Assembly (NCBI GenBank): GCA_028292315.1 | Contig: JAQGMO010000193.1 | Location: 1 to 34,213, forward strand | Reading direction: 5' to 3' | Origin: Herminiimonas sp. | GTDB lineage: Bacteria; Pseudomonadota; Gammaproteobacteria; Burkholderiales; Burkholderiaceae_D | DNA: 34,213 bases | Shown: positions 12,582 to 14,897 of the stretch, piece after piece | How the letters are laid out: every line of letters starts with the position of its first letter | How positions within the stretch are numbered: position 1 is the first letter of the stretch | Position numbers and translations under genes: made by a program | The notes under the pieces: generated by a model | Database searches by the model: none | What the model was told of the DNA's origin: nothing | Seen by the model: only the letters and a program-made list of their open reading frames with translations

Positions 12582-13910
12582 ATGATGAAACTGTTGCCAT
12601 TCATCGTAGCAATGCTGCTATGTGCAGGTTCCGGCGCCGCCTGCGCCAGCGGTTTCGCGCTGAGCGAAATGAGTGCCGCCGGGGTCGGCAGCGCAAATGC
12701 CGGCGGCGCTGCCGCAGCGGAAGATATCAGCACCATTTTTTTCAATCCGGCCGGCCTGATGCGATCGAGCGGCCGGCAATTCATGGCGTCCGGCTCGGGC
12801 ATTCGCCCGTCGGCGAAATTTGAAAACCGGGGATCGCTGTCCGCGCTCGGCACACCGCTTGCGGGCGGCAACGGCGGCGACGCCGGCACTTGGGCATTTG
12901 TGCCAGCGCTGTTTTATGCGATGGACGCCGGCCCCGGGTTACGCTTCGGGATCGGCGTGCATGCGCCGTTCGGCCTGAAGACCGACTATGAGGCGGGCTG
13001 GGTCGGCCGTTACCAGGCACTTAAATCAGAGCTGAGAGCGGTGAATATCAACCCCGTGCTGGCCTACCGTCCGAGTGACAGCCTTTCGCTCGGCATCGGC
13101 GTGAGCGCGCAGTACATCGACGTTGAACTGTCGCGCGCGATCGATTTCGGCACGATCTGCCTGGGCGCGCTGGGCGCAGCCAGGTGCGCGCCGGCCGGCT
13201 TGCTGCCGCAAGCCGCGGATGGCAAAGTCACGGTGGACGGTAGCGACTGGGGCTATGGATTCAATCTGGGCGCGCTCTATGCGCCAGGCCCGGCGGCGCG
13301 TTTCGGCATTGCCTGGCGCTCCCGGATCATTCACCGGCTATCCGGCGACGCGCGCTTCGAGCGGCCTGCGCGCTTGCCGGCGCCGCTCGCGGCCGCGCCC
13401 GCGTTTGCCAACACCGGTTCCAGGGCCGACGTGGACCTGCCGGAACTGGCGAGCCTCAGCGCCACCTTGGAACTCAACCCGAAGTGGACGCTGATGAGCG
13501 ATCTGAGCTGGCAGCACTGGAGCCGCTTCAGGGAATTACGCATACGCTTCGACAACGGCGCGCCCGACAGTGTAACGCCGCAGCAATGGCGCAATACGTT
13601 TCGGTTCGCGGTCGGGGTTAACCATCACTACAGCGATCGCTGGAAACTGCGCAGCGGCATCGCCTGGGACCAGACGCCGGTAAAAAGCGCATTCCGGACG
13701 CCACGCATTCCCGATAACAACCGCCTGTGGCTGGCGCTCGGCGCGCAATACCGGCCGTCGCAGCAAAGCGCATGGGACATCGGTTATGCGCATTTGTTCA
13801 TGAACGACACCTCGATCAACAAGGCGGAACCGCCGGTCGGCGGCACGCTCATCGGGAATTACAGCAGTGACGTGAATATCCTGAGTGTGCAGTACAACTA
13901 TTCCTTCTGA
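12582..13910 (+). CDS. Outer-membrane transport protein, OmpP1/FadL/TodX family
   Basis: The 442-residue precursor has a signal peptide (MMKLLPFIVAMLLCAG... ending ACA|SGFALSE). The mature N-terminus SGFALSEMSAAGVGSANAGGAAAAEDISTIFFNPAGL is the classic FadL plug signature. The rest alternates beta strands and ends in an aromatic residue (VQYNYSF), as outer-membrane barrels do. Members import long-chain fatty acids or other hydrophobic compounds. A substrate cannot be assigned; no fatty-acid or aromatic catabolic gene adjoins. I chose ATG 12582 because a GAGG ribosome site precedes it and the signal peptide then has normal length. The 3' end overlaps the convergent CWC gene by 13 bp. Confidence 0.9.
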   Translation: MMKLLPFIVAMLLCAGSGAACASGFALSEMSAAGVGSANAGGAAAAEDISTIFFNPAGLMRSSGRQFMASGSGIRPSAKFENRGSLSALGTPLAGGNGGDAGTWAFVPALFYAMDAGPGLRFGIGVHAPFGLKTDYEAGWVGRYQALKSELRAVNINPVLAYRPSDSLSLGIGVSAQYIDVELSRAIDFGTICLGALGAARCAPAGLLPQAADGKVTVDGSDWGYGFNLGALYAPGPAARFGIAWRSRIIHRLSGDARFERPARLPAPLAAAPAFANTGSRADVDLPELASLSATLELNPKWTLMSDLSWQHWSRFRELRIRFDNGAPDSVTPQQWRNTFRFAVGVNHHYSDRWKLRSGIAWDQTPVKSAFRTPRIPDNNRLWLALGAQYRPSQQSAWDIGYAHLFMNDTSINKAEPPVGGTLIGNYSSDVNILSVQYNYSF

Positions 13911-14095
13911 AGCCGCGCGGCATCGATTTTCGCGCGCAGGCATGCAGGACAAAAACAGCGCGCCGAGGCCGGATCATCGCCGGGAGAAAAAACAGGCGGA
14001 TGGGCCGGCAGCCTGGTGCACCAGCAAGGTTCGGTCGTGACGCAGTCCGCCATGCCACATTGAAATGCCGCGCCGCATTGTGGACAGGTGCTCAT
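13898..14095 (-). CDS. Cysteine-rich CWC family protein
   Basis: The 65-residue protein begins MSTCPQCGAAFQCGMA and contains EPCWCTRLP and CFCPACLRAKI. This spacing of Cys pairs and the central CWC triplet define the Cys_rich_CWC family. The eight or so cysteines likely bind zinc or an Fe-S cluster; the function is unknown. The ATG overlaps the anti-sigma stop codon by 4 bp (ATGA), so it is the third cistron of the sigma-factor unit. Its stop lies inside the end of the convergent porin gene. Confidence 0.82.
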   Translation of the reverse strand: MSTCPQCGAAFQCGMADCVTTEPCWCTRLPAHPPVFSPGDDPASARCFCPACLRAKIDAARLQKE

Positions 14096-14337
14096 GGTCG
14101 TTCGCGCCCGGGATCGGCCTCGGCCTCGGCCCCGACTGGGGGGCCGTCATGCCGCACGGCGCGCCGGATCAGGTTCAGCTGGCCGGTGAAATTGCGGCAT
14201 GCCTGGCATACCATGAGGTGCACCCGCATGCGGACCCGCTCTACCAGCGACAGTTCGCGGTCGAGTCCCTCCGAACTAAGGCGGTGTACTTCCCTGCAAG
14301 TAGGTTTGAATCCCATTCGATCGGCTTCCCTCTTCAT
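14092..14337 (-). CDS. Zinc-finger anti-sigma factor (zf-HC2/ZAS-like)
   Basis: The 81-residue protein carries the HxxxCxxC motif of zinc-binding anti-sigma domains (H40, C44, C47 in RVHLMVCQACRNF), with a further C14. It has no membrane segment, so it would be a soluble, possibly redox-sensing anti-sigma factor. It starts at ATG 14337, overlapping the sigma stop (TGATG), and ends overlapping the CWC gene. In soluble ZAS proteins such as RsrA and Neisseria MseR, oxidation or metal loss frees the sigma factor; a similar role here is inferred from gene order and motif. Confidence 0.85.
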   Translation of the reverse strand: MKREADRMGFKPTCREVHRLSSEGLDRELSLVERVRMRVHLMVCQACRNFTGQLNLIRRAVRHDGPPVGAEAEADPGRERP

Positions 14338-14897
14338 CAGGCCCTGCCGAACCAGTTCAGGTCCAGGCATTCGCGCAGGCGTACCCGTGCGCGATACAGC
14401 ATCACCCATGCATTAGACGCGGAAATGCCGAGTTCCTTACAGATTTCATCGGTATCCAGTTCCAGCCACTCGCGCATCAGAAATATCCTGGCGGTTTTTT
14501 CCGGCAGTTTTTCCAGGCACAGCTCCATGACCCGAAAGAAATCCTTCTGCTGCAGCGTGGCTTCCGGATCGCCCCACTGGCGCGGCATATCGCGGGTATG
14601 GCCATCCGCTGTGAACAGCGCAGCGATCGCATCGTCTTCGGACTGGTCGTCCAGGGTTTCAATCTGCCGTTCGCGCGCCGAACTGCGCAGCGCATCGATG
14701 ATCTTGTGCTTCATGATGCCGGTGACATAGGTGCGCAACGACGACTGGCCGGCAAAGCGCGCCGGCTTTTCCAGCACCGCGATCAGCGCTTCCTGCACCA
14801 CGTCTTCCGCCAGCGCCTCGTTGCGCAGCTGAAGCGAGGCAAAGCGCAGCAAGGCCGGCCGCAGACGTTCCAGTTCGCTATGCAATACTTCAGTCAT
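14337..14897 (-). CDS. ECF-type RNA polymerase sigma factor
   Basis: The 186-residue protein has sigma region 2 at about 12-80 (ALRFA-like start, [17 protein letters not shown], the promoter-melting segment [24 protein letters not shown]) and region 4 at about 125-180 ([48 protein letters not shown]). An acidic linker with DDQSEDD lies between. There is no region 1 or 3, so it is an ECF factor. A ribosome site AAGGA is 7 bp before the ATG. The immediate downstream zinc-finger gene is its likely anti-sigma factor. The target regulon is unknown. Confidence 0.93.

Follow-up and report, generated by a model that had tools for sequence, protein, structure and literature searches.

The locus at positions 13898 to 14897 of the analysed DNA is a well-formed example of a stress switch of known type, an ECF sigma factor with a soluble zinc anti-sigma (ZAS), together with a separable gene for a cysteine-rich CWC protein. 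The window, meaning the whole stretch of DNA that was analysed, is 34,213 nucleotides in length and comes from Herminiimonas sp. (contig JAQGMO010000193.1).

The sigma gene (14337 to 14897, minus strand) encodes a 186-amino-acid protein with regions 2 and 4 only. It belongs to the TIGR02943/NF009173 family, with 254.6 bits against TIGR02943 (cut-off 162.2) and 300.9 bits against NF009173 (cut-off 255). The anti-sigma gene (14092 to 14337, minus strand) lies directly downstream and encodes 81 amino acids from the first ATG, or 74 amino acids from a conserved methionine at position 8 (approximately 14316), the probable start. It scores 35.9 bits against Pfam zf-HC2 (cut-off 22.2) and 71.4 bits against NF052368 (cut-off 50). 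The CWC gene (13898 to 14095, minus strand) encodes 65 amino acids with conserved cysteines at positions 4, 7, 13, 24, 26, 47, 49, and 52, and scores 35.2 bits against PF14375 (cut-off 24). The first-pass annotation had described this three-gene row, and both the coordinates and the family assignments hold. The row is probably one presumably co-transcribed operon, read away from argB. The argB gene (15020 to 15919, plus strand) is divergent from it and encodes acetylglutamate kinase. On the other side, a FadL/TodX outer-membrane protein gene (12588 to 13910, plus strand) is convergent, and the last 13 bp of its 3’ end are shared with the CWC gene. The loci of 80 named sigma relatives contain no match to the FadL/TodX gene.

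All three genes had been said to overlap by 1 to 4 bp. The sigma stop and the anti-sigma ATG have one base in common (TGATG), and the anti-sigma stop and the CWC ATG have four (ATGA). The anti-sigma/CWC overlap is the conserved one, the 4-bp ATGA start being available in 45 of the 60 relatives with a CWC gene after the anti-sigma gene. The 1-bp overlap, on the other hand, is likely an over-extended start and probably not real. At least 90% of the 24 sequences aligned keep the methionine at position 8 of the window’s anti-sigma ORF, where most relatives start. With the start nearest the sigma stop taken, just 13 of the 81 anti-sigma genes, the window’s among them, run into the sigma gene (three by 1 bp, nine by 4 bp, and one by 8 bp). 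The sigma/anti-sigma spacing varies widely among the 81 genes and, counted from Met8, is about 20 bp in the window.

All 81 anti-sigmas contain the pattern Cys-x25-His-x3-Cys-x2-Cys. The HxxxCxxC zinc motif of the first-pass annotation is thus present throughout, with an additional upstream cysteine at fixed spacing. The spacing is that of Cys4, His30, Cys34, and Cys37 of NMB2145 as given in the available excerpt of PMC2893595. The five most hydrophobic of the 81 proteins have 19-residue Kyte–Doolittle maxima of 1.04 to 1.71. The window’s protein is not one of them, so no membrane anchor is expected in it, as had been predicted. A cytoplasmic redox or metal signal had also been proposed; the pair, with its soluble zinc anti-sigma, does belong to the cytoplasmic redox type, but the signal itself comes from homology. 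On that basis the pair probably responds to redox or metal stress, a signal that is likely for such pairs in general and presumed for the window’s. A PDB sequence search with the anti-sigma gave one match at E 0.05 and nothing usable; with the sigma factor it gave none at E ≤ 1e-4.

The same kind of sigma/ZAS pair is proven in Neisseria meningitidis, where excerpts of PMC2893595 describe sigmaE (NMB2144) and MseR (NMB2145). Both systems consist of an ECF sigma factor followed by a small cytoplasmic ZAS with the same Cys/His/Cys/Cys spacing, and the three cysteines of MseR (Cys4, Cys34, and Cys37) matter for anti-sigma activity (PMC2893595, in part). Unlike the window, where the neighbours are the CWC gene and argB, the meningococcal operon also holds NMB2140-2143, and the excerpt mentions no CWC gene. 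According to the same excerpt, meningococcal sigmaE was unresponsive to H2O2, diamide, and singlet oxygen, which counts against a redox mechanism for the window’s pair. In Haemophilus influenzae, RpoE2 and HrsE, an ECF sigma factor and a 67-amino-acid cytoplasmic anti-sigma with a zinc motif, co-purify, and induction is linked to HOCl, an oxidative stress (available sections of PMC7907618). That pair differs from the window’s in its linkage to msrAB and its control of a DoxX cluster, and the term CWC is absent from the main text (PMC7907618). The third comparison is sigmaR/RsrA of Streptomyces coelicolor, a zinc-thiolate redox switch in which the sigma factor is freed once zinc is released and a trigger disulfide forms (PMC4960319, in part). 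The window’s anti-sigma, however, scores only 21.5 bits against the RsrA equivalog model TIGR03988, below the cut-off of 62.5 bits. A CWC partner of sigmaR/RsrA is not known.

A copper link appears weak for this locus. Clusters of neighbouring ORFs around 80 sigma loci from across the order include one present at 29 loci (representative DUF2063), one at 15 (DoxX), and one at 11 (DUF2282), these labels being those of the tested cluster representatives and not of each member. DUF2063, DoxX, and DUF2282 proteins, sigma factors, and the anti-sigma NrsF are parts of copper-chelating bufferin clusters in the excerpt of PMC12452194. The link is considered weak because the anti-sigma of those clusters is NrsF, not ZAS (same excerpt), and because no match to the MNIO, or copper RiPP, enzyme (PF05114) was found in the window’s genome, at a completeness of 93%; the same search gives matches in two of 14 control genomes. 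Sigma/ZAS pairs across the order (loci L032-L111) were also seen by eye near cysteine-rich repeat proteins that resemble EGKCG-type precursors and have no Pfam match. At 11 argB-linked sigma loci, a gene like the PCu(A)C copper chaperone (cluster representative tested) lies convergent downstream.

Named contigs were scanned with the window’s sigma factor, and the best 80 loci were used. Many are from Herminiimonas, Noviherbaspirillum, Rugamonas, Massilia, Duganella, Pseudoduganella, and Undibacterium, genera of the Oxalobacteraceae. In this set, chosen by sigma and with some genes missing at contig ends, a ZAS gene follows the sigma gene in 80 of 80 loci, a CWC gene directly follows the ZAS gene in 60, and argB is divergent in 73. 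The trio is conserved among close sigma relatives, more than by chance. Sigma and ArgB distances correlate over 70 loci (Mantel r 0.74), which points to descent in place. Five rows of the sigma tree (L084, L093, L036, L050, and L076) have unusual placements or an unusual composition, and for that reason its deep nodes were left unused.

A second sample was based on argB. In 116 genomes of the window’s family (f1, taken as Oxalobacteraceae), overlapping partly with the best 80 loci, the CWC, sigma, and argB genes were located and their coordinates compared. The 115 argB genes (114 genomes) comprise 27 with sigma and CWC, 48 with CWC alone, 10 with sigma alone, and 30 with neither. The count excludes argB-family matches below about 140 bits (paralogues) and sigma rows below about 150 bits, among the excluded rows being a broken sigma gene beside argB in G330 and a second weak CWC row of G367. 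Two genomes (G307 and G394) have no argB row above the cut. Three others (G324, G354, and G376) have sigma and CWC on contigs without argB, and their argB genes are counted as having neither. No association between CWC and sigma was found at these argB loci (Fisher p = 0.30), and the four classes are not those of an obligate three-component system co-occurring at the locus. Five genera have both sigma-bearing and sigma-less CWC loci. Nine genomes, from three genera, have a sigma match above 290 bits elsewhere and the CWC gene still near argB (at approximately 3.2 kb in two of the nine).

The first-pass annotation had read the overlaps as fixed stoichiometry and the CWC protein as a possible second sensor or effector. 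The argB sample supports neither fixed stoichiometry nor an integral sensor or effector role of the CWC protein in the switch. The CWC gene is probably a separable member of the row and its product no fixed-stoichiometry sensor, with argB the more stable neighbour of the gene. Its frequent presence without the switch makes an essential role there unlikely. An apparently fixed operon can therefore mislead: sigma-bearing genomes alone suggest a three-part device, and sampling by argB shows the CWC gene to be independent. Strains of one genus with or without the switch before the same gene are a natural experiment on the function of the CWC family and the targets of the switch.

Linkage of CWC genes to sigma/anti-sigma genes elsewhere, on which the earlier proposal leaned, holds for the close relatives but largely fails outside the family. 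Across the order, 80 sigma loci, part of the sigma matches listed, have an anti-sigma gene in 79 cases (all except L108) and a CWC gene directly after it in only four. Three more have one within about 3 kb, and in the stretch examined the remaining 73 have none within about 3 kb downstream. Conversely, 92 loci across the order have a CWC match (window included; 30 with only approximately 1.5 kb of flank), and 22 of these are at argB. Six of the 22 have a sigma gene (one partial, L107), one has an anti-sigma gene and a broken sigma gene, and 15 have neither. Outside the order, 25 CWC loci from 23 genomes have no match to the window’s sigma (E ≤ 1e-4) or to the ZAS profile within about 1.5 kb. 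The exceptions with a linked CWC gene outside the family are Pandoraea and Cupriavidus (L236 and L243) and a few genomes of families f10, f20, and f38. Locus L053 has sigma, ZAS, and CWC genes adjoining thiG, with no argB in the stretch examined, so the trio can sit together away from argB. The PF14375 model finds CWC in at least 89 of 300 genomes, a lower bound since it missed the window’s own CWC gene there, which alignment A1 finds.

What follows on binding of zinc and of the sigma factor, on the signal and the regulon, and on the role of the CWC protein is inferred. The ECF sigma factor would be kept inactive in the cytoplasm by the zinc anti-sigma. The sigma factor would be freed to transcribe repair or metal-detoxification genes when the cysteines that hold the zinc are oxidised, under disulfide or HOCl-type stress, or when another metal displaces the zinc. 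Release of the RsrA type is taken as the most likely mechanism on homology to Neisseria, Haemophilus, and RsrA and on the spacing common to the 81 anti-sigmas. The CWC protein would be a small cytoplasmic protein with eight conserved, probably zinc-binding cysteines, working independently of the switch. In at least one genus, and probably in several lineages, sigma and anti-sigma were deleted from within the row and the CWC gene was kept behind the old leader. As a whole, a zinc-switch operon with an independent CWC protein and loss of the switch in some lineages is the reading we favour and consider fairly likely.

The strongest alternative is that the CWC protein is an effector raised by the sigma factor through operon autoregulation, for example as a zinc or thiol buffer under stress. 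The position of its gene in the sigma row agrees with this, as does autoregulation in this kind of sigma factor: the neisserial one regulates its own operon (excerpt of PMC2893595) and the Haemophilus one its own promoter in a reporter assay with the pair (excerpt of PMC7907618). In other members of the family, however, the leader between argB and the sigma gene aligns with the leader between argB and the CWC gene of three sigma-less loci (L116, L125, and L127). Genomes G298 (L125) and G337 (L270) have a related sigma factor elsewhere, but in G056, G269, and G302 (L116, L127, and L269, respectively) the best sigma matches are only distant, at E 1e-9 to 1e-11. With the leader kept and only distant sigma factors available, CWC transcription in those three genomes should be sigma-independent. 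Nor was the neisserial promoter consensus, as given in the excerpt of PMC2893595, seen by eye upstream of the window’s sigma gene. An effector role is possible, at a distinctly lower probability than an independent CWC protein.

The conserved element TTGTATTT...TCCGCTAG upstream of the sigma gene was considered as an ECF site and rejected, given its 17-bp TTGTAT/TAGTCT spacing and its persistence before the CWC gene in sigma-less strains. A pattern drawn from the TTGTATTT...TCCGCTAG sequences is present in 25 of 68 argB-sigma spacers; 20 shuffles gave a mean of 0.05. The putative promoter TTGTAT-17-TAGTCT (14924 to 14952, minus strand) fits a housekeeping promoter of sigma-70 type better than an ECF site, as judged from its sequence. 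A second promoter pattern has one site elsewhere in the window’s genome besides its own. For both reasons no regulon was predicted.

Loss accounts for at least some of the sigma-less loci. In a single genus (g138), two loci keep part of the start of the sigma gene before the CWC gene: 20 of the 24 bases after the sigma ATG in L270 and 14 of 24 in L269, each matched by none of 500 shuffles. A third scar (L271) is borderline, with 42 of 500 shuffles, and no scar was found in the ten others of the 13 sigma-less loci tested. In L139 (4184 to 4581), the sigma gene lacks its middle and end, and the anti-sigma and CWC genes read through. The anti-sigma of L139 is thus without a working sigma partner at its own locus. 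An ancestral argB locus with divergent sigma, anti-sigma, and CWC genes, followed by repeated loss of the switch or of the CWC gene, would be the simplest history.

The reverse history, in which a CWC gene already lay beside argB and the sigma/anti-sigma pair came in between them by insertion, may apply in other genera, since clear scars are present in only two of the 13 sigma-less loci and in one genus. Across the order, moreover, argB-linked CWC genes are more common without a detected sigma or ZAS gene (15 of 22). Against it are the scars and the decayed sigma gene, the correlation of sigma and ArgB distances, and linkage of sigma to argB in other families too (21 of the 80 sigma loci across the order are near argB, other families included), often with an Hsp20-like gene between. 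Insertion is improbable as the general history, and loss is preferred. The Hsp20-like gene was seen by eye between argB and sigma or CWC in nine of ten closely read argB loci of other Burkholderiales families (L043, L045, L049, L061, L062, L099, L129, L135, and L145), and one 90-amino-acid Hsp20-like fragment is just below the Pfam cut-off (18.2 vs 20.8).

About as improbable is that the CWC protein is a zinc or thiol buffer tuning the zinc site of the anti-sigma, kept on the old promoter as the sole retained part of the stress defence where the switch was deleted. Slightly less probable again is a second sensor, or a zinc/thiol relay, acting on the anti-sigma, with a secondary role in sigma-less strains. 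The conserved overlap with the anti-sigma gene and the trio away from argB in L053 argue for a sensor or relay. CWC and sigma distances also stay correlated when ArgB is taken into account (partial r 0.59). This could reflect co-evolution, but ArgB evolves slowly and may correct too little. Against these points stand the independence of CWC from sigma at argB, the nine genomes with a close sigma factor elsewhere and CWC near argB, and the 73 order-wide sigma loci without a nearby downstream CWC gene.

Eight cysteines are invariant in 39 CWC sequences, in a pattern that includes CWC. They suggest two metal sites, probably for zinc, in a small cytoplasmic protein. An AlphaFold model is of low confidence (pLDDT 65.5, pTM 0.47), and no fold match to it was found at E ≤ 0.001. 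Ten PDB sequence matches at E 0.0054 to 0.73, mostly cysteine-rich toxins, were judged to be chance. A literature search under the family’s names found no function for PF14375, and none of the best 12 of 54 papers matched for ECF sigma, anti-sigma, argB, and Burkholderia mentions argB; nothing on the sigma/anti-sigma/CWC trio turned up in these searches. A small cysteine-rich protein beside an amino-acid kinase, of a family that includes LysW-dependent kinases, is reminiscent of LysW, yet a LysW-like carrier for arginine synthesis is very improbable and was rejected, for the CWC protein has no LysW or other NCBIfam match, its alignments show no conserved acidic C-terminal end, its gene has other neighbours elsewhere, and ArgB scores best among NCBIfam models as an ordinary acetylglutamate kinase, LysW-dependent kinases being weaker matches.

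PF14375 members elsewhere adjoin unrelated genes. Among 20 neighbouring proteins tested were chitinase, AstE-like, phosphoesterase, TauE, ABC1, GDT1/TerC, Hsp20, and others, so no consistent partner emerges. In other families, the CWC gene adjoins a GDT1 cation-exporter gene in L118 and L151 (and, by similarity cluster, in L128, L131, L143, and L148), and in L151 a TerC gene flanks CWC on the opposite side.

Four further genes were identified in the window. A PIN-domain protein, possibly a VapC-type toxin, is encoded at 2122 to 2556. The gene at 27613 to 28281 encodes a protein without a Pfam match (E ≤ 1e-4), whose C-terminus resembles a PEP-CTERM sorting signal by eye. A single protein at 30827 to 31993 carries a rhodanese domain after a phosphonate-type periplasmic binding domain, and a molybdopterin oxidoreductase with a Mo-co dimerisation domain, sulfite-oxidase-like, is encoded at 32407 to 33660.
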